Shown here piece after piece: positions 28,251 to 63,300 of a DNA stretch of 64,000 nucleotides. Position numbers and translations under genes: made by a program. Source of the DNA: Escallonia rubra (lineage: Eukaryota; Streptophyta; Magnoliopsida; Escalloniales; Escalloniaceae); the NCBI GenBank assembly GCA_033065855.1, contig JAVXUO010001560.1, forward strand, positions 124,001 through 188,000. The letters are read 5' to 3'. The notes below the pieces were generated by a model. That model ran no database searches, had not been told where the DNA came from, and was given only the letters and a program-made list of their open reading frames with translations. Numbering within the stretch: the stretch's first letter is position 1; each line of letters starts with the position of its first letter.

Positions 28251-30527
28251 CTAATCATCCGGAAGTACTTCAATATCCGAGTCACTGCTCTTCCTATCAT
28301 CAATCGGTTTATCTTGCTCGCGGTATTTCGCATCAAGATAATCCTTCCAACATACACATAGCTCGAGCGACTCGGGGTTAAGACGACTCCTCCTGTCATC
28401 CAAAACCCTCCCGCTTGCTGAAAATGCCGACTCTGAAGCAACCGTGGAGGCTTGCACTGGCAGTACATCCCGTGCAATTTGGGATAAAGTTTTATACATG
28501 TTTTGATTTTGTTTCCAAAAATTTAACAAATTAAAATTAATCTGTTCTTGCCTTGATAAATCAGAATAATGATCAGTATTTGCATATACACCAATCTCAT
28601 TAAAAGAGGAAAAATTATACGAACCTCCCGAATTAGAAGTACCTTCACCTGGTAGTTGTCTTGCTACTAGATGTTCAAAGCCTTGAAGGTATGGCGCATA
28701 ATACCTCTCAGCAGTGGATGATGATGTAGCTCGCCCGCGCACGTCAGCAGAATTACGATAGAGGTTGAACAAGTCCTCAAACCTCTTGCTCACTTTTGCT
28801 GTGAGCAAGGTTGTGTCATCTGCTGTGTAGCGCATTAATTTCGATATCTCTTGTATCGAGGCGTTCACGCCATGCAACTTTAACCTAGGATCTAAACAAG
28901 TAGCCACAGTAAAAATAGCAGGCAGTTTCCTCCAATATTTATTAAATTTTTGATCCATCACTTGTACTATTTCCCTAAAGGGTCCTATATATCTCCATTT
29001 TGTTAACATTGTAGCCATCTTCAGAATTTCTATTACAGCGAGAGGAGAGGTGGGATAGTACGTACCAGACAATAAATTGGTAGACGTGTAGAATACCTCC
29101 AAAAATTCAGCTAGGTATGTGGCCATCTGCCATTCCTCTTGAGTTGGCAAGCCGGCTGGGAACTGGGTTAGTAGAAAATGCGTGTAGACTTCTCGGTATG
29201 CCAGAATGTGTAAAAGCATGTGGTATGTAGAGTTCCACCTGTGGACCACATCTGTAACTGCTCTCCTGCGAGGCATATTATATTGAACACACAACGTTTT
29301 AAATTGTTGTGTTCTCAAACTCGAGCCATTAACATACGCTGTCATACCCCTCATTTTGAGCAGAATATCTCCTGCAGCACCTAAACCATCTTGAACAATT
29401 AAGTTAATAATGTGACAAACACAACGAACATGAAATAATTCACCATCAAGTACAGGTTGAAGCGTCTCCTTTAAAGCTGCAACAGCAGCTTTATTATTAG
29501 AAGCATTATCAAAACTAACACTCATAATCTTATCCTTAATTTTAAATGTGTTGCATGCTTTTAATATAAGAGTAGCAATGTTCATTCCATCGTGCGGATA
29601 AGGGAAGTGCTCGAAAGTGATGATTCTCTTGTGCATAACCCAATCTGCATCAATCCAATGAGCGGTCACACAAGAATAACTAACAAAAGTATAAGGAGAT
29701 TGCCAAATATCAGAAGTAAGACTAACTTTACCGTCAAATTTATCGAAATAATCGATAAGGCGTGCTTTGGCAGCCTTGTACTGTCGGAGTGCATCGGACC
29801 TCGTTGTGTTTCTATGAACCTTTTTGTACAAAGGTTGAACGTAGGTGTTCATATATCTAGAGTGCTTAGGATTATCGGCAAAAGAAAAGGCTTGTTCATC
29901 GTGAATAACAAATTCAGCGAGACCGTCTCTTTGCTCTCGCTGATTATAAACAAATAACTTACCGTCAAAAGATAATTGCGTTTGGGTAGGTTCGACGTGG
30001 CCTTGTCGAGGTGCACACTGAGGGTAATGCCTGTTAAGATGTCCATTACCACTACCAGTCGAAAATAATTTAAGACAGTACTTACATTGAGCTTTTCGGA
30101 TGTCGTCCACCGTAATTAAGTCGAAATGATTCCAACACTCGGCTTTCTTCTTTTTCCCCCTTTGGACTTCTGGCACGTTATCGGAGGCATTGCTCGGCCC
30201 TTCTTCATCATGACCAGGCATAGGGTTGAGATTATGCCACTGAGTAGTAGCTTCGCCAACCGAGCTGCGTCCTTGACTATAATGCGGGGGGTCTTCATCA
30301 GGCGTGTATTCAAAATCTGGAATGTTTTGATTGAACTCCCAATTGGCTTGGGTATCTATCATAGAGCCTGTACTCATTCGTCCACGAACGAATGGTTGTG
30401 TTGGTGCTTGGATTGGTGTTTCTGATGGCCGTGGCGCTGGCGCTTGTGCTGGTGGTGGTGCTTGCGATGATGATGATTTCTTTCGTGATGACGTTGCACG
30501 CCTCATTTTGTTCAATAATCCAGACAT
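28251..30527 (-). CDS. hAT transposase (BED zinc finger, RNase H fold, hATC), 758 aa
   Basis: Cut-and-paste transposase expected to bind the ends of its own element in the nucleus and to act as an oligomer. Residues 1-125 are a Ser/Pro/Gln-rich tail with a basic start (NKMRRATSSRKK). A BED zinc finger covers about 130-170 (W132, CKYC 148-151, HLNRH 163-167). The RNase H-like core has the expected acidic residues D273 (LTSDIW) and D340 (SFDNASNN), CVCH 369-372, RWNSTY 430-435 and a candidate third acid E477 (FLEVFY). A DUF4413-like stretch (KFNKYW...TCLDPRLKL) lies at 527-551, and the hATC dimerisation domain at about 664-735 (VASESAFSASGRVLDDRRSRL). No stop or frameshift, and no intron is needed. 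The first Met after an upstream AT-rich leader is a plausible start. Intact coding plus intact ends suggest recent activity, not proof of present activity. Confidence 0.95.
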   Translation of the reverse strand: MSGLLNKMRRATSSRKKSSSSQAPPPAQAPAPRPSETPIQAPTQPFVRGRMSTGSMIDTQANWEFNQNIPDFEYTPDEDPPHYSQGRSSVGEATTQWHNLNPMPGHDEEGPSNASDNVPEVQRGKKKKAECWNHFDLITVDDIRKAQCKYCLKLFSTGSGNGHLNRHYPQCAPRQGHVEPTQTQLSFDGKLFVYNQREQRDGLAEFVIHDEQAFSFADNPKHSRYMNTYVQPLYKKVHRNTTRSDALRQYKAAKARLIDYFDKFDGKVSLTSDIWQSPYTFVSYSCVTAHWIDADWVMHKRIITFEHFPYPHDGMNIATLILKACNTFKIKDKIMSVSFDNASNNKAAVAALKETLQPVLDGELFHVRCVCHIINLIVQDGLGAAGDILLKMRGMTAYVNGSSLRTQQFKTLCVQYNMPRRRAVTDVVHRWNSTYHMLLHILAYREVYTHFLLTQFPAGLPTQEEWQMATYLAEFLEVFYTSTNLLSGTYYPTSPLAVIEILKMATMLTKWRYIGPFREIVQVMDQKFNKYWRKLPAIFTVATCLDPRLKLHGVNASIQEISKLMRYTADDTTLLTAKVSKRFEDLFNLYRNSADVRGRATSSSTAERYYAPYLQGFEHLVARQLPGEGTSNSGGSYNFSSFNEIGVYANTDHYSDLSRQEQINFNLLNFWKQNQNMYKTLSQIARDVLPVQASTVASESAFSASGRVLDDRRSRLNPESLELCVCWKDYLDAKYREQDKPIDDRKSSDSDIEVLPDD

Positions 30528-30599
30528 ATTTCACGCTAAACTTTGTAAGAGTAACTAAATACACAAGTATAAGAGTAGTAATAAGAAATAACAATTAAA

Positions 30600-35400: not shown

Positions 35401-38120
35401 GACTCTTTAGCTGTCAATACTTCGCAGTTGAGTTCTCGATCCCCAAGTCACCATCCCTTATATATTAATTTGTAGTCATTGACTCCTATCCAAATGTAAT
35501 GAAGAAACTTTCAAAGCTAGCAACTTCAATGTGTAATGCATCTATGTAGATGCACCCACCTTTCCAGCTTCTTTCTTTCCTTCAACTTTCAGAAAGGATA
35601 AAACCCTTCGACACCCACCATTAGATTTAGTACCAGTTACTTTATTAAGACCTCCTTTGCAAAATCATTGAACTATCTACCTAGAATACTCAACCTACCA
35701 CTACTAAGCGCCAACCACCCTTTAAACTATCATTCATGAGTACTGTCAACGGCACCCAGAACAGTCTCCAAACATCTCTCTTCCTTGACCACTTTACCGC
35801 TTGAACTCCTACCTTTGGTACCTAAATTTTCTACTACCTCTTCGACCATAACAATCAGCTATAATCAGGCCAAAATACGTACTCTAAAGTACCACTCTAA
35901 TTCTTAATAACAGAGGTCTGTAATCGATTTGTCTGGCCTAAACTTTGCCTTTAGAGGACAGCATTCAGGTTAATCATATGTTGTAGGCATACATGTTCAG
36001 TTGCTATTTTTCTTAAAAAATATATAACAGACAATGTTTCGATAATATAAAAACCATATGATTGTAGATATTTGAGTTAATTAGAAAAAGATAGACATCA
36101 ACACTAGAAAAAGATTTTGAAAGGTCTCTTAAAGAAGACAAATGGCTTTATCACACGTATAGAAGATTCTCGGCGTAAGAGTCTAATAATATGGCTGGGA
36201 TGTGACATCGAACGTCAAAGCTTTTACTACAATGTAGAAAGAGTTTGGATAAGAAGCAGTATTAAAAACTTAATATAAAGTTTAAGTGAAACTATGGAAC
36301 TTTAGACCACCTCGTGATGTTTCCCGGACTTGGTGCAAACACTGATGATGAAATGTCAAATTCAAAAACTTGTTCATTGCAGAGTGGGGAATGAGAAGTT
36401 TACATGGTTGTGGCTTGATAATTGGATGCCTTGTGGACCTCTTACTGCTCATTGGGGCCCAAGGATCGTATATGACGCTGTCAGTAATCAATATGCTAAG
36501 GCGTTTGCAATTATCCCTAATGGTGACTCGCAATTGCCAACCCTTAGATCTCAGGCTTTAAGAAGTTGGTACTATGTTCGTCAAATGCAGAGGTGGAGGA
36601 AAGTGATTCCATTAGATGAGCACTCACCCCTAATCGTAAATTCTCTATCAAGTCCACCTGGGATGCAATGAGAACAACGAAACTGATATGGCTCAATCGC
36701 CATGTGCTGCAATTGAAGGCTTGGAATCTTATAGTAGATAATAGTTGTCCTCAGTGTCTACAACAGTGTATGGATCACCTGTTTCTGTGCCAAGTATTTC
36801 AACAGTTGCAGCTCACCTGAAGTTATTCCAGTTGGCCACAACTACTGCAGTTTGCAACTGCTAAATTTCAAGGAAAGGGTTATTCATGCTAGACTTGGTA
36901 ATTTAGTTATCGCAATCACTATGTACGAGATTTAAAGGGAGCAAAATAGTAGAAAATTAACAATATCCAGAGACCTGCTGAATAAAAGGAGTAATTGGCT
37001 ATCAGTCATATGTTCGCTTTGCAGTAGCTGAATTGTAGTTAAGAGTCTTTGGTGAACCCCTCTATTAGGATGTACTTGTTTGAGCTTACAATAAAATAAA
37101 AGGAACATTAACTCGAAAGACAAAAAAGAGATAAAGTTGACAGAAAATGCTGCTACTAGTCATGTGTTATTAACTGCACAAATTGGTATTTGGTGGAAAT
37201 AAGACAAACAGTCAATTGGGAAAGATAAGCATTCATGGAAGAAAATTAAGTCAAATGACATAAACACAAACCCCATGCATCAGAGAGATGATGGAACCCC
37301 AACCTTCTCTCTATTCAGCTTCATATTTTCCTCTTCAAGACGTGAAATCTTAGTCACCAGCTCATTGTGATAAGCCTGCACATTAGCACATGACTCGGTT
37401 AATGACAAAGTTAACCAATTTGGGCATGCACGAGGTAGAAAATAAAGAAAAACACATTGAGTAGCCTGCCTGTTTTCTAGCTCGCGAAAGTGCAGCAGAT
37501 TCCCTGTTCTTGATCTTTCTCTTTAGCCTCCTCTCAAGAGTCTTCTCAAACGCATCTGCACCACCCCTCTTCCCACTCGGGGTTGGTGTATCCGATAGTC
37601 CGTCAATCGAAGTAGACGGTGACAACCCTATATGCCCAGTATATGTTTGTGTTGCCAATGCATTTTCCAAACCCATGGTGGATTCTAGAGAAGCTTCAGC
37701 AACATATAGCCCCGCTTTTACCAAAAATTCCTCCAATGTCATCTCACCAAGAGTTGCCTCTCTCCCTTGACCATTCATTTCCTCAACATCTCTCATTTTC
37801 TGCCCTTGTTGAATTTCCCTCCACACTTCATTAACTGTCTTCCCACTAAACGCCCTAACTAGCGACAGGCTGGCCTGACGCTTAAATGAATACGCTGAAG
37901 ACGAACTATCTACGGTCATATCATTCGACTGATTAGCCTCGGACTTCAACACGTTTTTAATCAGTTCATCAAGGTTCATGCTGCCCAGTGGTTTACCCAA
38001 GGCTCCTAATTGGTTCTCGACTTCATCTAGGGATAGGCTATACCATGAAATTTGCCTCCCCAATGGCTGTAAAGAGGATTGTTGGTCACTCCCATGAAAA
38101 CCCATTGTCTGAATCCCCAT
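32435..38120 (-). CDS. Group A bZIP transcription factor, ABI5/AREB-like, 265 aa
   Basis: Nuclear DNA-binding protein of the clade that binds ABA-response elements (ACGT core) and is switched on by SnRK2 kinases. Coding exons on the minus strand: 38120-37470 (217 codons), 37375-37304 (24) and 32509-32435 (24 plus TGA). Phases are all 0. Start MGIQTMG; C1 at 22-50 (RQISWYSLSLDEVENQLG...SMNLDEL); C2 at 80-103 with RQAS; C3 at 123-137 (LGEMTLEEFLVKAG); basic region about 194-215 with N205-x7-R213; zipper leucines L223, L230, L237 (R213-x9-L); C4 at 252-265 (TPEPRYQLRRTISL). All four conserved phosphorylation-site regions of the family are present. Length fits the short AREB3/EEL/ABI5-like 2 members, which it resembles more than ABI5 itself; I do not assign an orthologue. 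Intron 1 (37376-37469) uses a GC donor. Intron 2 is 4.8 kb. Confidence 0.93.
32510..37303 (-). other. 4.8 kb last intron of the bZIP gene
   Basis: Donor GT at 37303-37302 and acceptor AG at 32511-32510 on the minus strand. It separates the zipper from the conserved C4 tail. Apart from a LINE fragment (36290-36860) and a short A-rich duplication (about 34145-34220, ATATTTGTGCTTTGCACCAA twice), I see no identifiable element. Confidence 0.85.
36290..36860 (+). mobile_element. L1-type LINE fragment (zf-RVT region)
   Basis: Reads PRDVSRTW, then CRVGNEKFTWLWLDNWMPCG (36380-36435), GPRIVYDAVSN (36460-36490), and in a shifted frame STWDAMRTT (about 36650), then CPQCLQQCMDHLFLC (about 36750-36790). 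This is the end of ORF2 of plant L1 LINEs with the Cys/His zinc-binding motif. It is on the strand opposite to the bZIP gene and has frameshifts. Confidence 0.8.
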
Positions 38121-39880: not shown

Positions 39881-40845
39881 TTAGGGTATAAGCCATATAG
39901 CACCTACTCACTAGTGGTCTGATCGAGAGCACGAAAAACTAGCCGGCAAGTCAGTCTTCCCCTCTTTGTGAGATTATCAGCTAGCTTACAGAATATTGGC
40001 TAGTTCCCTTGCCAATATGTCGTATGTCAAAATAGGCATTCTCCCATAAAAAGGGTCCGGGTGTGTGATTTCTCTCTTAACGCAGGTTTAAGGTCATTCA
40101 TTCGGCTCGACTTGTTTATAATATCTCCCACTCGTAACTTAGGTAGTTAATAATTGGTGATCACCAGTACGTGTACAAGTCATTTAATAAACTAAGAAAC
40201 CAGGACGTTCCTTTAGTACGAGCCCTTGGAACTGAGGGTACAGTCAAATTCGTCTCATAACTAGGAAGTTCGGGGTTTCAACCATTACCCTCTAGTGGGT
40301 GAGTTAGGGACAAACGTGTACATGTGTGAGGCATGAAATAAGAGCACAATTATCACAGTTACAGCACATTGTACATGTTATACAACACAAAATAGAACAT
40401 TTTCAAGTTTATTCCTCTTAATTTTTAGTCCCCAGTAGAGTTGCCACCGTAGCGAACGACCTCAAAAAAAAAAATCCTAAAACCTGAAAAATAACTCTAA
40501 AAAATGTCCAAAGGACTATTACTCTATTGAAAACAAAGAAATGGGTCCGAGGACTAAGTTATACGACGGAAAGGTGTTAGGCACCCGCCATAAAACTTTC
40601 GGTCTCTACTTCATTTCTATTGATTTTTGAGTTTTCCAACATATATATACATAAACGTATAAAAGAACCCTAAGTCTAATTCTATATTATTGGCTTGAAC
40701 TCAACATCAGAGTTCGAATGACCTACATATCTGGTCGGACAAATCAAAATCAAAACTATCGTAGTTCGACTCGGATCCTACGGAAGGCAACCTACACATC
40801 GGTCTTAGACTCAAACTATGAAAAAGGCCTCTTTTTGATAGTTTG

Positions 40846-41258
40846 TGTTACTACTTAAATCTTGATCGGGACCACATCTAGGAAATGAGCCTGCAAAATA
40901 GAAACACAGAGTGACCACCGGGGATGTTCCGGTGGAGGCAGCTCCGATGCTAAAATCAGAACGACGCTACTAGGGTAGGATTATGAATAGCTGAAAATGC
41001 ACTGAGTGCTTGTGTGTGATCTTGTCTGTGTACCTGCGTATCTGCCCAATATATTGGTCATTTCCAGACTCCTCTCTTCTTTAGAACTCCTTTCTGATTA
41101 TCCTTCTTGTAGAAGAGCCATGTTAGGACTCTTCCTTTAGCACATGAGTCCTTAACTGCTTCTATCACCTCTCTTAGGTTCTATCCCGATATAGTCCACT
41201 CAGAGTCAACCATGCCACGTGTAATTAGACGGTTGGGTGGGTATATTTAGCCATATCA
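40846..41258 (-). repeat. 3' LTR of the Tat element
   Basis: On the minus strand begins TGATATGGCTAAATATA and ends AGTAGTAACA. Same length and order as the 5' LTR. Confidence 0.95.
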
Positions 41259-41260
41259 TA

Positions 41261-41280
41261 ATGCCCCCTCTCTTTGGCGA
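41261..41280 (-). other. Polypurine tract of the Tat element
   Basis: Reads AAAGAGAGGGGGCATT on the minus strand directly before the 3' LTR; start site of plus-strand DNA synthesis. Confidence 0.8.
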
Positions 41281-41356
41281 TTCCCTCAAGTGAACAGTTA
41301 AAGGCATATGGTGTAGAAAACCGACCAAAAATAATTTAGCCACGAATTTTCCATGT

Positions 41357-43680
41357 CCGTTGTTCAGAGGTATTTTTGAGTGTTTTAACACTTAAAATTT
41401 TATGCTCGGAATATCTAGTCGGGCATCCTAGTCGGGATGTCTGGTCAGATGTTCTGGTTGGGACATCTGGTTGGGCGTCTTGGTTGGGACGTCTGGTCGG
41501 GCATCCTGCTCGGGAGGCCTGCTCGAGCATCCTGCTCAGGAGGCCTGTTTGATCATCCCTGCTCAAGTGGTCTTTGGTCAGGCGTCCTAGTCGGATGTCT
41601 GCTCGGGAACCCTGCTCAGGAGACCTCGTTGATCATCCCTGCTCGAGTGGTCTGCCCGGGTCTTCTGCTCGGGGTCTCTGGTTAGGCGTCCTGGTTGGGA
41701 TGTCTGGTCGGGCATCCTGCTCGGGAGGCCTGGTTGATCATCCCTGCTCAAGTGGTCTTTGGTCAGGCGTCCTAGTCGAATGTCTGGTCGGGCATCCTGC
41801 TCGGGAACCCTGGTCAGGAACCCTGCTTGGGAGACCTCGTTGATCATCCCTGATCGAGTGGTCTGCCCGGGTCTTCTGCTCGGGGTCTCTTGTCAGGCGT
41901 CCTGGTCGGGATGTCTGGTCGGGCATCCTGCTTGGGAGGCCTGGTCGGGCATCCTACTCGGGAGGCCTGGTTGATCATTCCTGCTCAAGTTGTCTTTGGT
42001 CAGGCGTCCTAGTCGGATGTCCGGTCGGGCATCCTGCTCGGGAACCCTGGCCGGGAACCTGATCAAAAGACCTGCTCGGGAGGCCTGGTTGATCATTCCT
42101 GACCAGACATCCGTTGTTCAGAGGTATTTTTGAGTGTTTTAACACTCAAAATTTTATGCTCGGAATATCTAGTCGGGCATCCTAGTCGGGATGTCTGGTC
42201 GGATGTTCTGGTTGGGACATCTGGTCGGGCGTCCTAGTCGAGACGTCTGGTCGGGCATCCTGCTCGGGAGGCCTGGTCGAGCATCCTGCTCAGGAGGCCT
42301 GTTTGATCATCCCTGCTCAAGTGGTCTTTGGTCAGGCGTCCTAGTCGGATGTCTGCTCGGGAACCCTGCTCAGGAGACCTCGTTGATCATCCCTGCTCGA
42401 GTGGTCTGCCCGGGTCTTCTGCTCGGGGTCTCTGGTTAGGCGTCCTGGTTGGGATGTCTGGTCGGGCATCCTGCTCGGGAGGCCTGGTTAATCATCCCTG
42501 CTCAAGTGGTCTTTGTACAGGCGTCTTAGTCGGATGTCTGGTCGGACATCCTACTCGGGAACCCTGGTCAGGAACCCTGCTTGGGAGACCTCGTTGATCA
42601 TCCCTGATCGAGTGGTCTGCCCGGGTCTTCTGCTCGGGGTCTCTTGTCAGGCGTCCTGGTCGGGATGTCGGGTCGGGCATCCTGCTTGGGAGGCCTGGTC
42701 GGGCATCCTGCTCGGGAGGCCTGGTTGATCATTCCTGCTCAAGTTGTCTTTGGTCAGGCGTCCTAGTCGGATGTCCGGTCGGGCATCCTGCTCGGGAACC
42801 CTGGTCGGGAACCTGATCAAAAGACCTGCTCGGGAACCCTGGTCGGGAACCTGATCAAAAGACCTGCTCGGGAGGCCTGGTTGATCATTCCTGACCAGAC
42901 ATCCGTTGTTCAGAGGTATTTTTGAGTGTTTTAACACTCAAAATTTTATGCTCGGAATATCTAGTCGGGCATCCTAGTCGGGATGTCTGGTCGGATGTTC
43001 TGGTGGGGACATCTGGTCGGGCGGCCTAGTCGAGACGTCTGGTTGGGCATCCTTCTTGGGAGGCCTGGTCGAGCATCCTGCTCAGGACGCCTGTTTGATC
43101 ATCCCTGCTCAAGTGGTCTTTGGTCAGGCGTCCTAGTCGGATGTCTGCTCGGGAACCCTGCTCAGGAGACCTCGTTGATCATCCCTGCTCGAGTGGTCTG
43201 CTCGGGTCTTCTGCTCAGCGTCTCTGGTCCGGCATCTTGGTCGGGAGGCCTGGTCGGGCATCCTGTTCGGGAGGCCTGGTTAATCATCCCTGCTCAAGTG
43301 GTCTTTGGTCAGGCGTCTTAGTCGGATGTCTGGTCGGGCATCCTGCTCGGGAACCCTGGTCAGGAACCCTGCTTGGGAGACCTCGTTGATCATCCCTGAT
43401 CGAGTGGTCTGCCCGGGTCTTCTGCTCGGGGTCTCTGGTCGGGAGTCCTGGTCCGGACGTCTGGTTGGGCATCCTTCTTGGGAGGCCTGGTCGGGCATCC
43501 TGCTCAGGAGCCCTGGTTGATCATTCCTGCTCAAGTTGTCTTTGGTCAGGCGTCCTAGTCGGATGTCCGGTCGGGCATCCTGCTCGGGAACCCTGGCCGG
43601 GAACCTGATCAAAAGACCTGCTCGGGAACCCTGATCAAAAGACCTGGTCGGGAGCCCTGGCCGGGAATCCTGGATTGGCA
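41357..43680. repeat. Three-copy super-repeat built of GGGCATCCTGCTCGGGAGG-like units
   Basis: Super-units start with CCGTTGTTCAGAGGTATTTT at 41357, 42111 and 42903 (periods 754 and 792; the third is partial). Inside each, a roughly 20-26 bp GC-rich unit with TCGGGCATCC, CTCGGGA and GGCCTGGT recurs dozens of times, some as TGATCATCCCTGCTC variants. Its open readings on both strands are by-products of the repeat. It forms the non-coding region of the Tat element next to the 3' LTR and the upstream flank of the antisense gene. Confidence 0.93.
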
Positions 43681-43940
43681 CATTGTGCTCGGGCAGTCTG
43701 CTAGGTTTATGTGCTCAAGCACTCTGCTCGGGCAATCTGCTCGGGCACTCTGCCCGGGCACTCTGCTCAGGAAGTTGTTGTCTTGCCACGTGTTAGGGAT
43801 TAATGCAATTGTAACGGTCATTTAGCCGCCAAAATTGAGGCGGTTAAATTTTGAATTTCAAAGTTTAATACTCCGGGAAACGGGTCAGACGTGTGTCTTA
43901 AATGTTGCCGCCTTTATAATGGTGGTTACTCTAACTCCCA

Positions 43941-43953
43941 TCTATATATATTT
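43941..43953 (+). promoter_or_regulatory. TATA box for the antisense gene
   Basis: TCTATATATATTT lies about 150 bases before the antisense ATG, just outside the tandem repeat, in a setting (pyrimidine-rich CTCCTCACTCTC downstream) typical of a plant core promoter. Confidence 0.6.
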
Positions 43954-44098
43954 GGGGTTCTACTCCTCATTTGCCCCCTGCTCCTCACTCTCATTCTGTT
44001 CGGCTCATCTTAAACAAGTAAGTTCCTCTTCGCCTTTTCTTGCTCGGCACATATCTATTTCCTTTTAGTAGCACTAAATATCATAGTCTTTTTAGAAC

Positions 44099-46063
44099 AT
44101 GTCTACAACAAGTTCGAGTAGTTCAACAGAAAACGATATAGAGAGTGGCTCCGAAAGTAGATCTTCACAAGTAGGTACTTCAACTCATAGAAGCCAAGTA
44201 GGAACTTCTACTCCCCAAGTCAGCACTTCGTTTCCTCGTAGAGATGCTCTCAGGGAAATCAATGATGAAGCCGAGGATAAATTTGACGAAGACACTTGGT
44301 TCTCTGCAGACGAGAAGAGGAACAAGATGACAAAAGAAAGCATAGTCGAGCTTTTGGAAGAAATTCCTTTGCCTCCTCCCTTCTCTGCTCGGGTTCCAGC
44401 ACTCCAAGAGCCTGCCAACTATGGTACGGGCTTGGAAACAAGTGTCTACGAAGGTTAGATTAGATCTGGCTATAGAGTTCCAATGCACCCCTTTGCTGTC
44501 GCCTTTTTCAATCACTATAAAATGGCGCCAGGTCAGCTTGTGCCCAACGGTGGAGAAAACTCGTTGGTTTGATCTACCTTGTGCAAACTTCTGGGTATCC
44601 AGTGACAGTCCATGACTTTATGAGGCTATACCTTGAAGTCTGTTTTATAAAGAACGTGGCCAACAGTGTCGGTTGGTATTATATTCACAACCGGATCCGA
44701 ATTATAAAGGGGGGTCCTAAATCCAACAAAGGTTGGCACTCCCGGTACTTCTTCATTCAGCGGCCAAGCGGCAAATGGGAGTTCTCAAGAAAGTGGAATG
44801 GGTACTGTAAAGATTATGAAAAGAAGGGTTCCTTGGCTCCCAATGCTACCACAAAAAAACTGATTGATCATATAAAGAGGAGGGGTGTTCTCAATATTGA
44901 TGAGCCCCTTTCAGATCAAGAGATGCGGCATGCGGGGCTCATTCCTCCCTCCACCGCTTTGCCTATTCCTCCAACTCCTGTCGTAGAGGCCCAAATTTTT
45001 TTGGGACCTAAAACTCAAGGGCTGGCGATAGGAACGTCATTTTCTAGAACTCCAAGTCTAGGTAGAGTCTAAAGCCATGTTTATATATTTGTTGTCTTTA
45101 TAATTGTAAACATGTTATCTAACCTTGTTCTTGTTTCCAGAAATGGCTGGCAGAGGTGAAGGTGCAAAAAGTGATTTTTTAGGCCTGCTCCAAAAGGCTT
45201 CCAAAGGTAAGAGGAAAGAAAGTACAGGAGAAGGTTCTTCCCCTCTTCTAAAAAGGGCCCGCGCTCTGACTCCACCAGTGGCTCCGCTCGTGATTGAGGA
45301 TGTTCCTATCGACAAGGATCCTATTTTTCGTCCCCGATGGACCATTAAGAGAGGCGACTCGGGAACGCCAAGCTCGCATGTTTCTGCTCAGCACTTAGCT
45401 CACGGGGTGTTGCCGAGTGATAAACTGATCTTGGAAAATCAGCCTCATGAAGCCTTTGCAATGGCGCATGTCCAGGCTGCTTACAATGTAATTTGAATTA
45501 CTTTATACTTTTTGAGCTCTCCATTAAACTCCTCCCGTTCTTCTATCATCTAACCGTCTCCGTATTTCTTCTCTTCTCAGGCCTACTGTTACAGCAGCCA
45601 GATGCAGGACAGGTTTGCAATGGCGATGGATGTGGCTCGCAATGCTGAGACTGACAAGAGAGCCGCCGAAGGCAAGGCTAACAAACTGGATAAGGAGGTC
45701 AAGAGCCTAAAGACGGAGAATGCTGATCTGCTTAACAAGCTCGGCCGCCTGGAAAAAAGGTGTGAAAAGCTAAGGCAGGAGAAGGCCGAGATCGGGAACA
45801 AGGCCATCCAGGCATTCCTTGATGGTACCGCTGGAGAAGAATGGCTGCGGAAACGGACAGAAGATGGGCTTTCCATCTTCCAGGAGGGTTCCCAGAAAGC
45901 CAAGGAACAAACAATGGCCAAGTATCTGAGCCTTTTCTTGGATGATGTTGTGGTTCCCAGCTTTGAGTCACCATCGGGGGAAACTGCCGCGCCTACTGAA
46001 GCTGGAGATGCTATTTCTCCCGGGGAGAAAAGTGTCCGATCCGGGAATGCTCCTGCATCTTAG
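44099..46063 (+). pseudogene. Antisense spliced gene of the Tat element (Transposase_28-like plus coiled coil)
   Basis: Lies on the strand opposite to gag-pol. Exon 1 is 44099-45061, exon 2 is 45141-45487 and exon 3 is 45581-46063 (TAG). Both introns (79 and 93 bp) have GT-AG ends, a pyrimidine-rich acceptor and matching phases (1 and 0). The N-terminus is Ser/Thr-rich. About 44430-44790 gives the block found in plant 'putative gypsy type transposon' proteins (Transposase_28 family: MHPFAVAFFNHY, APGQLVPN, GYPVTVHDFMRLY, GWYYI, SNKGWHSRYFFIQ). Exon 2 has a basic stretch (KASKGKRKES); exon 3 is a charged coiled coil (KANKLDKEVKSLKTENADLL). Exon 1 has one in-frame stop (about 44456) and one frameshift (about 44550), so this copy is broken. 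Function is unknown; extra and antisense ORFs have been reported in Tat elements. It converges tail to tail with pol, 670 bp apart. Confidence 0.8.
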
Positions 46064-46731
46064 GACAATTTATCATTATTCACAAGACGTTTTGTAATTT
46101 CCCATTTGATGTGCCCTCAGTCCTATTATTGCCTCAGAGGCTTGCAAATGGTTACCTTGTTGTTTACCCCTTGAGGGGTTTGGTTTTTGCCATCATGTTT
46201 TGAATCTTTCACCTTTTGCTTTGTTTTTACTTTGACGCGAACCCTTATCGTCAGCTAAGGGCTGGTAAAGAAGCCTCGCACTCACGCTGGGCCATGTTTT
46301 GAATTCCCAAACCAGGGTGGGGCGACTCACTCCCCCATGGTGTTTCCCTTTCTCGTGCTAGAACTAAAGCTAGACCGTGTTAGGTAAGACTTGTGTCTTA
46401 CCCTATCACATTGGGTGATACTTTGCTTGAGCAACATTCGTGGTTTCACTTGATCGAGCAGTCTGTTCGGGCAGTCTGCTCGGGTATTGAATGTACGTCG
46501 TTATTGGGAACATGAATATCGTTAACTGAGTTAACCAATGATCGTTATGCTAATGTAAGAAATACCTCTTTCAAATAATAATGAAGATGTTAATATTGGG
46601 TAGACGAAACGATATACTTCAAACTGCAGTTGATTTTTATTACAACGGAAATACTTCATCTCTACTCTCCAACTATGTTCTATGCCACTTTCCCCCCAAA
46701 AAGGAAAATGTCTGGTGACAGATACAAGATT
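46064..46731. other. Spacer between the antisense gene and the end of pol
   Basis: Probably the 3' UTR of both convergent transcripts. CGAGCAGTCTGTTCGGGCAG at about 46456 resembles the units of the tandem repeat at 41357-43680. Confidence 0.6.
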
Positions 46732-47745
46732 CTAATGGTAGTATTGCCTCAAGTAGTCAGCATTCCACGTTCGCGGGATCGCTTCTCCTGAAAGTGTTTC
46801 CAGTGAATACGCGTCTGGTCTAAGCACCTTCGATATCTTGTGAGGTCCTTCCCAGTTTGGCGACAACTTCCCACAACTGCCTTCGGGTTTGAAACTTCCA
46901 ATTTTCTGAGGACTAGATCGCCAACTCTAAATATCCTCATTCGAACCCTTCGCTTGTAGAATCATGCAACTCGTTGTTTTGTTGAAATCATCTGATCTAA
47001 GGCTTGGGTAATAGATCCAGATTCCCTCTAAGATTCTCCTCGTTTTCTGCCGCTGAAACTTGTAGCACTCGAACTGTGGGGAGGCCTACTTCTACGGGCA
47101 GTAGCGCTTCTGTCCCGAAACACAGCAGAAATGGTGCCTCGCCTGTCACAGAGTGGGGTGTTGTGCGGTACGCCCAAAGTACCTTAGGGAGCTCATCAAC
47201 CCATGCCCCCTTAGCATCGTCCAACTTTCTTTTCACCCCTTGAAGGATGGAGCCACTCATGTTCTCCGTTTGTCCATTGGATGGGGTGTGGGCGACCGAC
47301 GTCAAACTGAGATGAATAGAGAGACCTTCACAAAAGCTTCGAAAGTTTGAATTATCAAATTGCTTCCCATTATCAGTGATCAGAACCTTTGGAACCCCAA
47401 AGCGGCAGACAACGTTCTTCCAGAAGAACCCTTCGCATTTCGATGCCGTTATGGTGGCCAATGGTTCGGCCTCAGTCCATTTTGTGAAATAGTCGATGGC
47501 GACTATCATAAACCGCCTTTGCCCGGTAGCCATCGGAAAGGGCCCCAAAATATCCATTCCCCACATTGCAAACGGAATTGGGGAAGTTAAGATACTAAGG
47601 GGTGCCGCCGGCGTGTGCGTGAGTGGGGCAAATTTTTGACATCGGTCACACCTTTTCGTGAACTTGATCGCATCTCTCTGCATCCCTGGCCAATAATAGC
47701 CTTGCCGCAAGATTTTGTGCGCCAGGTTTCTTCCACCCAAATGTT
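46732..47745 (-). pseudogene. Tat element integrase
   Basis: Integrase that joins element DNA to the host chromosome. Zinc-binding Cys pair in CDRCQKF, then the catalytic triad: D in WGMDILGPF, D in ITDNGKQFDN and E in NGQTENMS; also WVDELPKVLWAYRTT and a GPY/F-like tail (FRVGDLVLRKLEVSNPKA, then in another frame SPNWEGP...TWNADYLRQYYH and TAG at 46734-46732). A frameshift separates it from the RT reading near 47745, and another near 46880 splits the tail. Confidence 0.9.
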
Positions 47746-49914
47746 GTCCGCAATTTCTTCATGAACCTCCCGTAACGCATAGTCTGCCTCTCTAGGGCTC
47801 AGGCACTTCAGGTACGACAGGCTAAAAGACTTCTTATATAGCATCCCATCTACAAGAGCAAACCGAGCAGCTTTAGCATGTAAATTACGCGCTTCGCTTC
47901 GCTCTAAAGGTAACACACCCGAGACGAGGTACTGAATGATTGGGTCCATCCAGCAAGGTTCATGTTCTACTACATCCACCTCCTTTGAGAGCTGGATACT
48001 TCTTTCTTGGAGGAATTCAATGTATACTGCACGGGAGAACTCCGAAATGTCCTCGGAAGTTAGTCTAGACAGTGAGTCTGCTTGGGCATTTTGGTCTCGC
48101 GATATGTGGCGGATGGCAAAATTTTTGAACTTAGCTGCTTCCGCTCTCACGGCCTGGAGATACTGAGACATTCTATCATCTTTCGCTCCATACTCTCCCA
48201 AGATATGATTCACAACTAATTGAGAATCGCTATGGACAGAAAGAGAGTCAACTTTCAGAGAGTGTGCCAACCTTATTCCTGCTAGTAGCGCTTCGTACTC
48301 AGCTTCATTGTTTGATGTTTGGAAATTGAAGCGGAGGGCGTACTCAATCACAAACTTCTCAGGGCTGATAAGTATAAGCCCGACTCCGCTACTTCCTACC
48401 TTGGAAGAGCCGTCAACATAAAGGAGCCAAGGATCCGAAACTTCTGAAAGAATCAACTGCGGGGGGTTCTCCGGTATTGTGCACTCAACAACAAAATCTG
48501 ATAAGGCTTGAGCCTTAATCGCTGTACGGGGTTGGTACTTAATATCAAACTCGCCCAGTTCCACCGACCAGTTTACCAATCTACCTGACACATTAGGATT
48601 TTGGAGAACTTTCCCCAATGGTTGATCAGTCAACACAACAATGGTGTGCGACTGGAAATATGGTCTCAATTTTCTTGCCGATGTGACAAGGGCAAGGGCC
48701 ACCTTGTCTATCCGAGGGTATCTCGTCTCCACATCCTGTAAGACCTTGCTTATGTAATAAACAGGTCTTTGCTTGCCTTCCTCTTCTCGGATTAAAACCG
48801 TGCTTACCGCTACTTCATTAACCGATACGTATAAGAACAAGTCTTCACCAGTAACCGGTTTCGTAAGGAGCGGTGGGGATGACAAGTATTGCTTCAATTC
48901 CTCGAATGACTTTTGGCATTCTTCGGTCCACTCGAAATCTTTCGCCTTCCAGATAGCCTTAATAAAGGGAAGGCATTTTTCGGCTGACTTGGACATGAAT
49001 CTTCCCAAAGCCGCCACTCTTCCTGTAAGCTCCTGAACCTGCTTAATTGTCTTTGGCGACTTCATGGCATGAATTGCGCCTATCTTCTCTGGGTTTGCTT
49101 CAATACCTCGTTGAGATACTACTAATTCTAAGAACTTCCATGTTGCTACTCCTAACGCCCACTTTATCGGGTTTAGATTCATGTTGTAAGCTCTTAGGAT
49201 GTCAAAGGTTTCCTTGAGGTCCTCCACATGAGCCTTGGCTTCCACACTCTTTACCAGCATATCATCCATGTATACCTCCATATTTCTCCCAATTGAGTCG
49301 TGGAAGATCATGTTAACGAGGCGCTGATAAGTTGCCCCCGCGTTCTTGAGTCCGAAAGGCATGACTTTGTAGAAATATAATCCCCGTTCTGTAATAAAGG
49401 AGGTCTTGGGAATATCATCTACGCACATCTTGATCTGGTTGTATCCAAAATACGCATCCATGAAACTCAACAGCTCATGACCCGAAGTTGCATCAATCAA
49501 AATATCAATTCGTGGTAACGGGTAACTGTCCTTTGGGCAGGCCTTGTTGAGGTCAGTGTAATCGATGCATATGCGCCAACGGTCGCTCGACTTGGGTACT
49601 ATCACGACATTGGCGATCTAATTAGGGTATGATATCTCCTCAATGAATCCGGCTGCCAACAACTTGTCAACTTCTTATTCGATTTTTACTTGTCTCTCTG
49701 GAGCGAACGTCCTCTTCTTTTGCTTGACCGGCTTCTTGAGCGGGTCAACATTCAATTTATGGGTGATTACTTCCAGATCAATCCCAGGCATATCGGATGT
49801 CGTCCAAGCGAAGATATCTGAGTAGCTTCTCAATAAGTTCACAAGCTTGAGCTTGAGGTCGTCTGATAGACATGTTCCCACCCTTACTGTCTTTTCTTGG
49901 TTTCCTGGATACAA
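47746..49914 (-). pseudogene. Tat element reverse transcriptase, RNase H and archaeal-type RNase H
   Basis: Starts with the pre-RT region (DIFAWTTSDMPGIDLEVI, HKLNVDP). The RT has DLNKACPKDSYPLPRID, LLSFMDAYFGYNQI and the catalytic VYMDDML. A first RNase H follows (YVSVNEVAVSTVLIREEE, with VYYISKVL), then the second, archaeal-type RNase H with its acids in LLYVDGSS, NNEAEYEALLAGI, VHSDSQLV and NAQADSLSRL. Two in-frame stops at about 49673 and 49617 interrupt the start of the RT, after which 47587-49605 is one open reading of 672 codons. Presence of two RNase H domains is the basis for the Tat assignment. Confidence 0.93.
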
Positions 49915-51095
49915 TTCGATATCAGGAGGTCTTCAGCGGGCTTACCTCTCTCAACTTTAGTCTCATCCCTCAAATCCTCTATCATGAGGGTTTCATTGGC
50001 TCTGTTTCGGCATGATGCCATGTAGCACTGCCAAGCCACCACCTGGTCTCCCTTAACTTCTCCAACTCCAGTCTCCGTGGGGAATTTCATTTTCGTGTGG
50101 TATGTTGATAGCACCGCCTTTAGTTGGTTTAATGCTGTTCGGCCCAAAATTGCATTATAGGCCGAAGGAATGCGTACCACCACGAAATCTAGCATCAGCT
50201 TAGCTTGGGCTGGTGGGGCACCCACGGTCACTGGTAATGCTATAATTCCCTCGCAAACAACAAGATGGTTGGAAAAACCGTATAGAGGTGTATCTATCTT
50301 CCGTAAGCAGTCGGATGGGATGTTCATTTTTTGAAATGCCTCATAAAAAAGTACTTCCGCCGAGCTCCCATTATCTACGAGGATTCTCTTCATGTCGAAG
50401 TTTCTTACCCGAAGTGTAACAACGAGGGGGTCATCATGAGGTGTTCTAGTGTCTCCCACATTGTCATCAGAGAAGGATATTGTTGGGGTCGGTTCTATCT
50501 TCTGCTTCTTAATCGACGGCCCCACAGTTGTGAGGACTTCTTTTGCGTAAGCTTTTCGTCCTTGTCCGGAAGAGCCGCCTGCGGCGATTCCTCCCGAGAT
50601 AGTATTGATGACGCCCGCATTTTCTTGCGCTTCTTCTCTTCCTGCTAAAGGAGTGGCTTCCCTCTTTTCATTTCTTCGATTGACATATCCTCGCAAGTGT
50701 CCGCGTTGGATAAGAGCCTCGATAGCCCGCTTGAGCGATTCACACCTGTCGGTAGTATGGCCATGGTCGTTGTGATAACGACACCACAAATTCCTATCTC
50801 TCTGACTGGGCGCTGATCTCATCATATCTGGTCTTTCCAGTATCTCTTTATCCTTTATCTCATGGAGAATCTGCGATGGTCTAGCAGTCAATGGCGTCAG
50901 ATTCTTCATGTCGAACATCTCTTTGGGGCGCCTTTCGTCCCTTCTTGAACGCTTAGAACCCCGTCCACCTCTTGGACTATCTTCTCGAGCTCTCTTTTCT
51001 TGCTCTTGCCCATTGTCCCCCCGGTGTCCTTTGTGGGTTTCTAAGTACTCTTCGGCCTGGATGTACTTGTTGGCTTTATCCAACAAGGCGCTCAT
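49884..51095 (-). pseudogene. Tat element gag C-terminal part and aspartic protease
   Basis: Open for 403 codons. Order: MSALLDKANKYIQAEEYLE (end of the gag core), a basic Arg-rich region, a zinc-knuckle-like CRYHNDHGHTTDRC, then a retroviral-type aspartic protease with ILVDNGSSAEVLF, where the usual D-T/S-G is DNG, and NAILGRTALNQLKAV. It is out of frame with the gag part upstream (slip in a C6/G6 run near 51105) and with RT downstream (about 49905). Confidence 0.88.
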
Positions 51096-52277
51096 GCTTC
51101 CGGGGGGCTCTTATTTACCGCAAATGCAAATTTGGTTGTAGGATGAAGCCCGCGCAGAAAAGCTGTGTACTTTACTAACTCATCCAGGTTATATATTTCT
51201 AATGTTGCTGCATTGAAGCGTCCCAAATACCGCGACAAGGATTCGTTCCTTTCCTGGACCACGTTGAGGAGACTTGCTGAATTCTTCCTCCGAGTTCGGC
51301 TGCTCACAAAATGTTTCTGAAACAAGTCAGACAGCTGGGCGAAGGAATGGATGGTCCTGGGTCGTAGAGACTTAAACCACGCATGCGCCGCCTTCCTCAA
51401 AGTGGTTGGGAATGCCCGGCACATGACGGCATCTGAGACCTGGAGGAGCAGCATATTTGTTTGAAACTGGTAGACGTGCTCTCCGGGGTCTCCGCTCCCA
51501 TCATATAAATCACATTGCGGCATCCAAAAATGGGGAGGAAGTTTCGCCTTCTCAATTGTTTTGGACAGAGGGTATCCTGAGTCCTCCCTTGGGGGAGTGA
51601 ATGCCTCTGGGCAAGGCCCCGAGATAGTTTTGCGAGAAGTTCGCCCTTGGGGACGCACTTTTTGTGTGGAGCCATGAATTCGTCCTTGGGGACAATGTCT
51701 TTGGTTCGCGCAACGTCGACCTCGAATTCGTCGCCTACAACAGGAAGCGAATTCGTGCTGTTCTCCACTGACAACCCGTGCCGCACACATGGTCCACTTC
51801 TGGTGACATGTTTTTTGGTTTCTTGTTCTGGCTGATAGCTGGGATCAGTCTCTGATTTATGCTTTCGACTATAGCTGGACCTTGGGGTCAGTCTAAGACG
51901 AAGGTCGCTGGGATCTAGACGCGTCTGGTTAGTGAAATCATCGGGGCCACCTCTTCAAGCTTTTTCTGTAAGGTAGTTACCACACCCTTAAGTTCGTGGA
52001 CTTCTCTGGTCAGATCCGCATTTGGAGTGTCAAACAGCTTTTTGGTCAGGTGATGGCGCAAGTCTCCCCTCTTTAAAAGAGGGGTCGGGGAACGAGTTCC
52101 CTGGGAGCTGTCAGTCGTCTTCGGGGTGACTAAAGTTACATTAATCCAGTCGTTACTAGAATGTTGTTGGGATGGTGTTGGTTGCCGACTTTTTCGGTGG
52201 GAGCCACTTGATTTCGCTCGTCGATTTTGGATGGAGCGGCTGGCTGGGGGAGTGTCTGAAGGTGATTGCCTAGCCAT
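51092..52277 (-). pseudogene. Tat element gag
   Basis: Structural protein. Begins at the first ATG after the PBS (MARQSPSDTPPASRS, Ser/Pro-rich, with a coiled coil ELKGVVTTLQKKLEEVAP) and stops at 51915. A second reading in another frame (51790-51092) has the retrotransposon gag core: FWMPQCDLYDGSGDPGEHV, RAFPTTLRKAAHAWF, FQKHFVSS and ESLSRYLGRFNA. At least one frameshift between 51790 and 51915. Confidence 0.88.
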
Positions 52278-52287
52278 GTTCCTTGTC

Positions 52288-52306
52288 GGTCCCACGGATG
52301 GCGCCA
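52288..52306 (-). other. Primer-binding site of the Tat element
   Basis: Minus strand TGGCGCCATCCGTGGGACC, three bases inside the 5' LTR; a common gypsy-type PBS. The gag ATG follows 10 bases later. Confidence 0.85.
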
Positions 52307-52309
52307 AAA

Positions 52310-52723
52310 TATTACTACTTAAATCTTGATCGGGACCACAGCTAGGAAATGAGCCTACAAAATAGAAACTCAGAGTGACCACCGGGGATGTTTCGGTGGA
52401 GGTGGCTCCGATGCTAAAGTCAGAACGACGCTACTAGGGTAGGATTCTGAATAACTGAAACTGCACTGAGTGCTTGTGTGTGAACTTGTCTGTGTACCTG
52501 AGGATCTGCCTAATATATAGGTCATTTCTAGATTCCTCTCTTCTTTAGAACTCTTTTCTGACTGATCTTCCTTGTAGAAGAGCCATGTTAGGACTCTTCC
52601 TTTAGTATATGAGTCCTAACCAGCTTCTATGACTTCTTTTAGGGTCTATCCTGATACAGTCCACTCAGATTCAACAATGCCACGTGTCATTAGTCGGTTG
52701 GGTGGATATATTTAGCCATATCA
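52310..52723 (-). repeat. 5' LTR of the Tat element
   Basis: Pairs with 40846-41258. Its PBS-proximal end has decayed from TGTTACTAC to TATTACTAC (read on the + strand). Confidence 0.95.
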
Positions 52724-53779
52724 GTTTGTATAATGAAAATGTGACCGTGGAGAGGAAAACACTCTAGACTATAATTTAAACTAGTTTAGAAAGCAGTAAA
52801 TATACATCGAGAATATGCTTGCCTAGAAGACTTGGGAATGCAATGTGATGGATCTATGATGCAAGTTACTTAAAACTATTTAGAAATGAATATGAAGTAC
52901 TAAATTTTCCTTATATATGATCTACCACTTCTAAGAGAATGGTATAAAAGCTCAAGGGAGAAAAAGCTTTCCCTTGAAAATGTAGGCCAAAGACCCTATT
53001 TATAGAGGTCTGGGAACTAGAAATGATAAGGATGACTATCATATTCTGTGATCTGGCGATATAGCAAAATATTTGATGAAAATTACAAACTAAAAAAAAA
53101 GTCAACAAACCGGCCAGTTAGTCAATGAATTGGCTCATCTGATGAACCAGCTGGTTTTCGACAAACCGGGTTTATCCCTTAAAAAAAATTCTTTTTGAAT
53201 TTTGGGATATTATATGTTCTCGATTCGGCAATTATCTCTGACGTAATCAGATAGGATGAACCAGACTCGGGAATCATCTCTATATATCATAAAAATAATG
53301 ATTAATCTCATGTATCAAGGATAAATCAAAAAATCTTTCTAAATCTTTTAATTAATCACAATATCTTGACCTTAACTTAGGTTATACTTAACTAATTGGA
53401 CCGGGTTCTAATTGGGCTGAAGTGGACCACTTATTGGACTTATATAAATAGATTAGGTTCATTATATTATTAGGCCTAAACCCCACAATAATAATAAACT
53501 TAATTATCAACAAAGCCTAATAATAGAAATAAGAAAGATAAGATAAAACTTAAAAAATGGGACGTCTACAACGGGATTTAATGATATTTACTTCGCATTA
53601 ATGAATGAATTAAGTCCAAATCTGTATCCTAAAGTCACCAAATTTTACTCGATTACCTAGTGTTTTTATTCTACTGAATTAGTACCTCCAACTATATTTT
53701 TAAACCCACATCTGTCCGTCATTAGTAGAAGCCTCACGGTTGTCTAAAATTCAAAGGGTAAGCATGGTATTTGAAACCA

Positions 53780-60390: not shown

Positions 60391-63300
60391 GTGAGTTAAA
60401 GGTATACTTAATACTCTGTTTCAAGATTAGTTAATTTGTTTGTGTAGTGCTATTTGCGTTAATGCTTCTTATTGGTTTGCTAAGCGTCTCTGAAGTTTTA
60501 AGAACTAGAGTTTGTGTAGTGCTTATGCTTGTCATGCTTTTTAAAGATTTAAGGACGCAATATTGATAACAAAAAATTAAGAAACAGAAGGGATGCAAGG
60601 TTTGGTGATTTGGCTGAAAGCATGTAAATTTACTTATACTTGAACATCATCTACGTTTGTGTTAAGTATCATGCTTAGTTCTATACATGTGTAATATCAT
60701 TATTGGTGTGTGGATGAATTATGCCATTAGCTGTCGTGATTTGTTTCGAGCTTCACTCATGGTAGAGGAACTTGGCATAGATGAACTATCATGGTTTGTA
60801 CTCGCGCACATAGTGATTAAGTGTCCAGACCTTATGTAATTCACAAACAAAATGGGTGTATCGACCAAACTTCTATTAATGGATGGTACCTTTTATCAGA
60901 CGTTTCTAACCTGACCTCGTGCGATTCCGGGTCAATTCCAATCTTAATTTGGCGGCCACCTGTTTCAATTTCAGGTTTTCTGCAACAACAAACCCAGTAC
61001 ATGTCCCTTGGAAGGAATTCACTAAGAAATGTATTGGGTTTCCCTTGCTGAAACTAGAAACATTCAAATTTATTCGGGGGTCAGAGTGACTTAGCATACG
61101 TAGCGGATTTTTCCATTCCACTTTTTGGTAACCTCCACCCCTTCCACCTTTGGTTGATTTTTTTTCCTTCGTCCCATTTTCATACTTTAGCTTTTCCTTC
61201 TTTTTTGTGTTGCTGCATCAGTCGCAACAACTTGATTCTTGGGGCAAAAATAAGTAGCTTGGGTATTTGCAATAATACTTTGTGACGTCATACGCCAATT
61301 TAGCTATAGATTCTGTTTTTTGTTTTGGAGATATATAATTTGTTTCCAAATGAAGTTGTGGAATGTCAATTCAGATCATCTTTCACTCAATACCCTGATC
61401 CCAAGTTCTGTTGTTTCACTGCTAGACGAGTATTAAACTGGCCTTCTTGCAGTTTATCGTCTTTCTAAGTGAGAAACATGGAAAACTAGGGAGATGGAGG
61501 CTCGAAGTCCTGTTTATTCTAATTTACCATTGACCATGAAATCACTAAAGATTTACTGTGGAAGAAAAGGTTAAGAAGTTGATACGAAGAGTTTACAACA
61601 AAGGAGGTTTTCCACCAAGTTCTGTTGTTCATCAAAATTTCAAATCATTAGATCCCTTCTGTTGTCTGCAAGTGCACCTGCGGGTTTGTTCGTGCTCGGG
61701 CTTGTGCTTGTAGTTCCATTATTTACTTCTTTCGTACCTTGTTTGAGCATTCAAGTCGAAGTAAACTATGTTAGTGTCCATGCTGATTCCATGACAAAAA
61801 TTTTGGTAGACTTTCATACGAAAACACAGGTATATCTGATATCAAAGTAGGTACTCTTGCAATACTAGTTATTTTCATGCTACTTAAATTACGCCCAAGA
61901 CAAAAAATCTGAGAACTTTACAAAGGTCCCTGATATATATTGTGAGTTTGTGTTACTTGTTATACTTCTATGCTGATCTTAACTACTGATATCAAAGTAG
62001 GTACTCTTGCAAAACTAGTTATTTTCATGCTACTTAAATTACGCACAAGACAAAAAATCTGAGAACTTTACAAAGGTCCCTGATATATATTGTGAGTTTG
62101 TGTTACTTGTTATACTTCTATGCTGATCTTAACTAGTGCAGGACAAAGATTTCAGTAGACTTTCGCATGAAAACATGGGTAATGAAATTAATTTAGGTAC
62201 TATTGCAAATCCCAGGGTGGTTTATTAATTTTTGACAAGGCAAAAAGTTTGAGAATTTTCAAACCACTTTGGGATTTTCCGTTATATCATTGCAAGTTTA
62301 TGTTGTAACTTGTATTTTATACTTATCTTGCATTACGTACTGTACCAAAGCTAGTAGTTGTCATCCTACATGAATCACAATGTTTCACACATTTTCCCAA
62401 CGTTAAATGTGCTCTAATATATTCTTCCAAATGTTGTTTAAAATATAGTTTGGGACTAAGTTGAACTTATCTATGGTAAAGTTTTCTTCTCCAATTCTCA
62501 AGTTTCCCTTGGAAATATTTTGTTTTTGAACTTGAAGTTTTTATGTTTTACGATTCATTGTGCAGATCCATTCATAGATGCATCAATCTTTTAAATTTGG
62601 ACTCTGCTGAATCTTCTGAAGTTCCGGGCACTCAATGACGTCTTTATATTCGTAGCAAAAAGTTACTGTTTGCCTAAAGACCAGAATCTTAACTCTGTAT
62701 TTTCTTTTTCTATTCAAGTACTTCTATTTCTTTCGACTATTTTCAAAACAATGTAGTATTTTCGTTCGGATCTTGTGTTTCCAAAAAATTGTTGGGGAGC
62801 TGGTGGGAGATTCCTACATAGATCTCCATGACTCTCCAGAATTTTAAGTTGGTTAAGCGGCAATATTATCTTATGCACCTATTTGATGGTTGTTTCTCTT
62901 CATACTTGAGTTACTGGTCTGTTGCCAAAATGTGGTTTTCCATGTGAGCGCTTCCAATGTTTTTAAGATGTGATGGGTTGATTTTCGTCATTAGACCTAT
63001 ATTATGACTTGTATACTATAACAATGTGATTGCAGGTAATGTTTCTAGTATTAACGACCTCTGATGATGTGATAAGGACAGACATTTCTCAGAGACCTGA
63101 CCCCACCCCCCCTCTTTTCTCTTTCCTTTTTTTCTCTCTCTGTGTCTCTCTGGACTTTGTGATTCTTTTTGGTCGAAATATTGTTTTGAAAAGGGGAAAA
63201 GAAGTAACATTTGATTATTTCTTAAGTTGGTAAATCCACAAATATGTTTTTTTGGTGGGAATATCTGGTTGTCGTACCCTTCATTTTGGAAGGAGGAGGC

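Follow-up and report, generated by a model that had tools for sequence, protein, structure and literature searches.

Plant LTR retrotransposons are generally without introns, Ogre and EVADE being the exceptions named in a 2025 review (PMC12786077). Sense-strand introns are not expected in such elements, since replication passes through a spliceable RNA. Genes on the strand opposite to gag-pol are known from the Retand elements, where a survey of 63 clusters reported TRP28 ORFs for all except two (Vicient 2025, PMC11963269). Like the Escallonia gene considered here, these ORFs lie antisense to gag-pol between pol and the 3' LTR, contain PF04195 (Transposase_28, predicted to be DNA-binding) and have tandem arrays nearby (PMC11963269). 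Antisense Transposase_28 genes in Retand elements are therefore already known, and the gene described below is a variant with two introns. The TRP28 survey counted single ORFs and never uses the word intron in its main text (PMC11963269); the Escallonia gene, on the other hand, has three exons and two conserved introns, and selection on it has been measured. No description of introns in antisense Transposase_28 genes was found in the literature searched (outside Steinbauerova 2011 and Gomez-Orte 2013).

Several other systems resemble this gene in part. In maize, gene23 of Grande is an antisense accessory gene with its own promoter that encodes a nuclear protein (Gomez-Orte 2013, via review PMC7264820). 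The HBZ and APH genes of deltaretroviruses are likewise antisense, their transcripts are spliced, and the HBZ and APH-2 proteins are nuclear (PMC10186651). However, the HTLV-1 antisense promoter is in the 3' LTR and TATA-less, and HBZ has a bZIP domain (PMC10186651); no sequence relation to the Escallonia gene is claimed. The gag-pol intron of Ogre also resides inside a Tat-clade element, but on the sense strand, from where it is removed in a subset of transcripts (PMC6317226), whereas the Escallonia introns are antisense and would be invisible in the genomic RNA. Finally, the VANC proteins of VANDAL transposons, which counter silencing, are encoded by the element beside noncoding tandem repeats of a short motif (PMC5735166; PMC10398659), an arrangement that is also found here.

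The gene lies in a 64,000-nucleotide stretch of Escallonia rubra DNA (the window), inside a complete element with LTRs that are 90.8% identical over 412 columns and a 5-bp target site duplication, GTTTG, at 40841-40845 and 52724-52728 (Table 1). The minus strand encodes gag, RT, RNase H of two types and integrase, spread over several frames. One of these frames holds PF17919/PF17917 together with PF13456, which we take to be the archaeal-type second RNase H of the Tat clade. A second RNase H is a marker of that clade (PMC6317226). From the end of the integrase frame (46997) to the end of the 3' LTR (41258) there are about 5.7 kb, containing the antisense gene and a 2.4-kb tandem array; this is long, as in the Tat/Retand lineage, in which Retand elements have 2.9-6.6 kb between pol and the 3' LTR (PMC11963269). 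Based on the antisense gene and this long 3' region, the element is assigned to the Retand lineage as a Tat/Retand-type element. The 9% divergence of the LTRs indicates an old insertion; at a substitution rate of 1.3e-8 per site per year, it would date to about 4 million years ago, within wide limits.

Elsewhere in the window, the minus strand carries an uninterrupted 759-aa hAT transposase-like frame (28251-30530; PF05699 1.1e-22, PF14372 1.1e-12) and an exon-like, presumably ABI5/ABF-like frame (37383-38120) in which the beginning of a bZIP domain scores below cut-off. About 2.7 kb separate this second frame from the retroelement upstream of it. A 153-bp tandem duplication, 98% identical, occupies 61836-62138.

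Table 1. Features of the Tat/Retand-type element and its antisense gene, in window coordinates.
Feature	Position	Strand	Remarks
Complete Tat/Retand-type Ty3/gypsy element, carrier of the antisense gene	40846..52723	-	LTR pair, target site duplication, gag/RT/RNase H/integrase domains
5' LTR	52310..52723	-	
3' LTR	40846..41258	-	
gag frame	51092..51844	-	PF03732, 3.7e-16
RT and two RNase H domains	47587..49617	-	PF00078 1.5e-24, PF17919, PF17917, PF13456
Integrase frame	46997..47758	-	PF00665 1.6e-13, PF17921
Tandem array directly upstream of the antisense promoter, between it and the 3' LTR	41356..43770	+	TGNTCGG repeats
TATA box of the antisense gene	43943..43949	+	TATATAT; position kept among copies, few shared variants
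Exon 1	44099..45061	+	Transposase_28 domain in relatives; broken in window copy
Intron 1	45062..45140	+	79 nt, phase 1, GT-AG, 29% GC
Exon 2	45141..45487	+	Basic pattern resembling a bipartite nuclear localisation signal
Intron 2	45488..45580	+	93 nt, phase 0, GT-AG, 37% GC
Exon 3	45581..46063	+	Coiled coil, through to stop codon

A sequence-only reading of this locus had proposed a separate transcription unit, tail to tail with gag-pol on the opposite strand, with three phase-matched exons, two short GT-AG introns, a TATA box about 150 bp upstream, and a product with a plant-specific N-terminal domain and a C-terminal coiled coil. This was partly borne out. Frames and domain strands agree with the tail-to-tail arrangement, both introns were found in place by direct reading, and TATATAT starts 156 bp before the ATG at 44099. 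The sequence supports a separate antisense unit in a Tat element, with its TATA box and two introns, as well as the proposed protein layout, the N-terminal domain being PF04195, as seen in relatives. The exons are 45-53% GC, versus 29% and 37% for the two introns. The exon phases match as well, but exon 1 is not open in the window copy, which consequently does not qualify as the working gene it was taken for. The frame from 44099 hits a stop at 44456-44458, the remaining piece of exon 1 (44521-45072) is in a different frame, and an alignment to 12 related proteins switches from frame 2 to frame 1 near 44551. With one in-frame stop and one frameshifting indel in exon 1, the window copy is a pseudogene. 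A Pfam scan of its broken pieces gave no match to PF04195; the domain spans the break.

Is the structure kept in other copies? A search of the genome (566,129,122 bases, 3,222 contigs) with 44521-46063 as the query gave 44 matches (452 first-look candidates, 40 of them scored). Loci were taken for the best 30 of the 44, the window included, a sample that leans toward complete copies. Each of the four splice dinucleotides is canonical in 29 of these 30 copies, and all four together in 27. Intron 1 is 78-86 nt long and intron 2 is 92 or 93 nt in 29 copies, differences that are not tied to multiples of a codon, while exon 2 measures 347 nt in 26 copies and exon 3 measures 483 nt in 25. (One copy, G000:C28:33420-34880, lacks 83 bp across the boundary between intron 2 and exon 3.) The ATG is kept in all 27 copies that cover that stretch, and TATATAT is found 153-164 bp upstream of it in 26 of them. 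When the 44 matches were compared by hand with a list of 40 RT matches, nine contigs were common to both; on all nine, the antisense gene and RT are on opposite strands, tail to tail, with a spacing of 2.0-2.3 kb.

Full-length predicted relatives of the antisense protein are present in the protein database, and the 120 that were listed all belong to E. rubra or E. herrerae. Two initial searches yielded 163 proteins, which were split at 56% identity to the relative P0001, 105 falling above the cut and 58 below it; those of the latter that were listed have 43-53% identity to P0001. One member of this second subfamily, P0100, aligns to the genome exon by exon (170 matches), and ten stretches (identity range 66-100%) were taken as a sample. 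In all ten, both introns have the same codon positions and phases as in the window. Donors are GT in nine (intron 1) and ten (intron 2), and acceptors are AG in nine for each intron. A TATA box, CTATAA, precedes the ATG (located by pattern) by 139-144 bp in all six copies with upstream DNA, and integrase is opposite in strand to the antisense gene in L075, the one copy checked. The upstream DNA of four subfamily 2 copies matches the window in runs of 11-19 bases only. Since the introns and the TATA box are common to both subfamilies, the transcription unit predates the subfamily split.

What might such a gene do for its element? The explanation that we favor, and consider probable as a whole, is that the window copy is a decayed member of a conserved three-exon accessory gene with its own TATA promoter, carried by Tat/Retand retrotransposons. 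The antisense unit would be transcribed from this promoter and then spliced, and splicing in vivo is very likely, judged from the sequence. The Transposase_28 domain of exon 1 would thereby be joined to the nuclear localisation signal of exon 2 and the coiled coil of exon 3, giving a dimeric nuclear protein. This protein would most likely bind the element's own DNA, probably at the motif array beside the promoter, and so regulate or protect transcription of the element. That the product is a nuclear protein acting on DNA or chromatin, a proposal based on motifs and literature, has in our estimate an even chance of being correct.

PF04195 was found in exon 1 of all four relatives scanned, above the cut-off of 26.2 bits (P0001 36.7, 5e-9; P0005 37.3; P0100 41.6; P0095 34.8), and the Transposase_28 part of P0164 found no structural match in fold searches. 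By our own definition of the basic pattern in exon 2, 41 of 65 and 19 of 32 classable proteins have this bipartite-nuclear-signal-like stretch and the other 24 and 13 lack it (97 of the 163 proteins could be classed, by their junction-2 residues). Exon 3 encodes a long helix, modeled in P0001 as residues 450-524 with a pLDDT of about 70-79; the rest of that model is poor, and the fold models, all of low confidence, yielded no structural match that would support DNA binding. When solved structures were searched by sequence, the single hit was a weak one between the coiled coil and an engineered protein (E 0.0075).

A protein of this kind might also be an HBZ-like repressor of the element's sense transcription, and not an activator or anti-silencing factor. 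The spliced antisense transcripts of deltaretroviruses encode proteins, one of them bZIP, that restrain sense transcription of the virus (PMC10186651), and the window copy, P0001 and P0005 all have a sub-threshold match to the zipper part of PF00170, without the basic region (19.5-24.2 bits versus a cut-off of 27.6, profile positions 28-63 only). However, a full bZIP domain, with a basic region and a zipper above the Pfam cut-off, was not found in the scanned sequences, and the Pfam scan gave no zipper match in the subfamily 2 proteins P0095 and P0100. Furthermore, the promoter is internal and has a TATA box; judged from the TATA position (43943), it is outside the 3' LTR, where an HBZ-like promoter would be. 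The repressor reading is unlikely.

The array next to the promoter is rich in CTG(N)TCGGG. TGNTCGG occurs there 53 times on the gene's strand and 0 times on the other (41356-43790), compared to 8 and 2 times in the 52,122 bp outside the element and 8 (forward) and 3 (reverse) elsewhere in the element. The scattered window copies include those in both LTRs (40863, 52327), the 5' leader (43997, 44041), exon 1 (44386), the DNA just downstream of the antisense gene (46464, 46477) and the gag-pol part (50136). Among 29 subfamily 1 loci, two of them without upstream DNA, 26 of 27 copies have the motif 21-40 times in about 790 bp upstream (758 forward and 1 reverse overall), and the remaining copy has none. 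Subfamily 2 arrays (six copies) are at the same place and consist of a different repeat unit in which TCGG occurs 5-9 times per array, always forward in five copies and 7 times forward and once reverse in the sixth (L077).

A motif core that is common to both subfamilies, on the gene's strand and in otherwise dissimilar upstream DNA, invites a self-recognition reading. The spliced antisense protein would then be a nuclear, dimeric, sequence-specific factor that recognizes the TGNTCGG motifs in the arrays next to its promoter and elsewhere in the element, and that opens the element's chromatin or relieves its silencing, making it an LTR-retrotransposon counterpart of VANC. In this specific form the proposal is distinctly unlikely. 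VANC belongs to a different class of element, and VANC-like binding and demethylation would apply here only by analogy. The motif pattern could also stem from shared ancestry of the arrays or from binding of a host factor. In subfamily 2 (L071-L074, L076, L077), 11 of 41 motifs come close to perfect palindromes centered on TCGG (5 or 6 of 6 arm pairs), unlike in the window; this palindromic form is limited to subfamily 2, which counts against self-recognition.

Purifying selection on the antisense frame, with introns that keep their place, was the test proposed in the earlier reading; within this one genome, the gene passed it. Singletons are mostly mutations that occurred after insertion, whereas variants found in at least three copies were mostly carried through replication. 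Nonsynonymous and synonymous changes numbered 389 and 142 among singletons versus 118 and 180 among shared variants in the 30 copies, an odds ratio of 0.24 (0.30, 0.20 and 0.20 for exons 1, 2 and 3). The ratio was 0.30, 0.24, 0.20 and 0.17 at cut-offs of 2, 3, 5 and 8 copies, and 0.27-0.35 when CG/CHG transitions were left out. Singletons are even over codon positions 1, 2 and 3 (0.299, 0.283 and 0.298 per site), while shared variants are not (0.106, 0.076 and 0.311, with 0.258 in the introns). No shared variants occur at the eight splice dinucleotide sites, where about two were expected, a result that is weakly significant by itself, and the TATA stretch (43941-43953) has them at 1 of 13 sites (0.077 per site, versus 0.24-0.29 upstream and 0.18 downstream). 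Of the remaining frames, both forward ones and two of the reverse ones have the opposite trend; the third reverse frame is depleted, too (odds ratio 0.32). Since the P values treat sites and copies as independent, which does not hold for related copies, they are set aside, and it is the pattern of variants that carries the argument for selection.

Pairwise dN/dS for the antisense gene is 0.22 (dN 0.054, dS 0.245; 435 pairs), with RT as a control at 0.15 (best 30 of 40 matches). Read in the RT frame of the window (offset 2 of the majority columns), RT gave 0.25 in the shared-variant test; RT singletons are unfit as a neutral standard for RT because their nonsynonymous to synonymous ratio is already low (158/118). 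In subfamily 2, dN/dS is 0.15 (10 copies, 45 pairs; 0.15, 0.10 and 0.18 for exons 1-3). Introns are not a clean neutral yardstick, since in each subfamily they diverge less than synonymous sites do (0.144 versus 0.245 in subfamily 1, 0.298 versus 0.501 in subfamily 2). Within one genome, then, protein-level purifying selection on all three exons is evident at the level of DNA sequence. With its canonical splice dinucleotides and codon-level constraint in all three exons, the gene structure is more than a product of chance, and structure and selection together are almost certainly real.

This bears on the view that the antisense transcript is itself the functional product, pairing with genomic RNA and feeding or blocking small-RNA silencing, with the protein incidental. 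The unit is indeed antisense to the 3' part of the element, and a published review allows such a role (PMC7264820). However, RNA pairing alone does not predict dN/dS values of 0.22 and 0.15 or a codon-position bias in all three exons, and RNA and protein roles are not mutually exclusive; that the protein is incidental is very unlikely.

The three exons might also be short genes or ORFs in their own right, lying on a single RNA that is not spliced, with the introns as spacers, a view helped by the ATG at the second codon of exon 2. This is highly improbable, given splice sites that are canonical in most copies and phases that are identical in the two subfamilies. Moreover, retention of intron 2 would bring in an in-frame stop in all 30 copies, and retention of intron 1 leads to a stop or a frameshift in 25. 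In third-party gene models, predictions that draw on transcript or protein evidence and/or Pfam content (PMC10759652), the exons are joined with no gain or loss of length at junction 1 in 66 of 120 proteins (24 differ, 30 could not be scored) and at junction 2 in 85 of 120 (15 differ, 20 could not be scored). Least credible of all is an unremarkable dead repeat, in which a fragment of a host gene was captured and serves no purpose for the element: the window copy is broken and stops or frameshifts are present in 29 of 30 copies, but purifying selection in shared and not in private variants marks a gene used in replication that decays after insertion, low dN/dS recurs in the second subfamily, and this reading, contradicted for the family, holds only for the window copy today.

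Why, then, would the conserved antisense gene have kept its introns? The sequence-only reading spoke of a need for introns. Their persistence likely has a simple answer: the genomic RNA would carry them in reverse complement, unseen by the spliceosome, and the spliced antisense mRNA, having no LTR ends, would not be copied, so that nothing would remove the introns during replication. That the introns are needed does not follow.

One survey reported Transposase_28 for 23% of Retand elements (PMC6317226), another for nearly every cluster (PMC11963269). The two surveys counted long single ORFs, with cut-offs of at least 250 codons and at least 600 bp, respectively. Introns might explain part of this gap. 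If the structure described here is general, single-ORF surveys have cut such genes into pieces, and the reported TRP28 ORFs of less than 600 nt and second antisense Smc-like ORFs might be exons of one gene. For the Transposase_28 gene family, dN/dS values of 0.15-0.22 are now available, and TGNTCGG is a concrete candidate target motif for the protein. By being placed antisense, the gene would escape intron loss, allowing the element to carry a spliced, separately regulated gene indefinitely.
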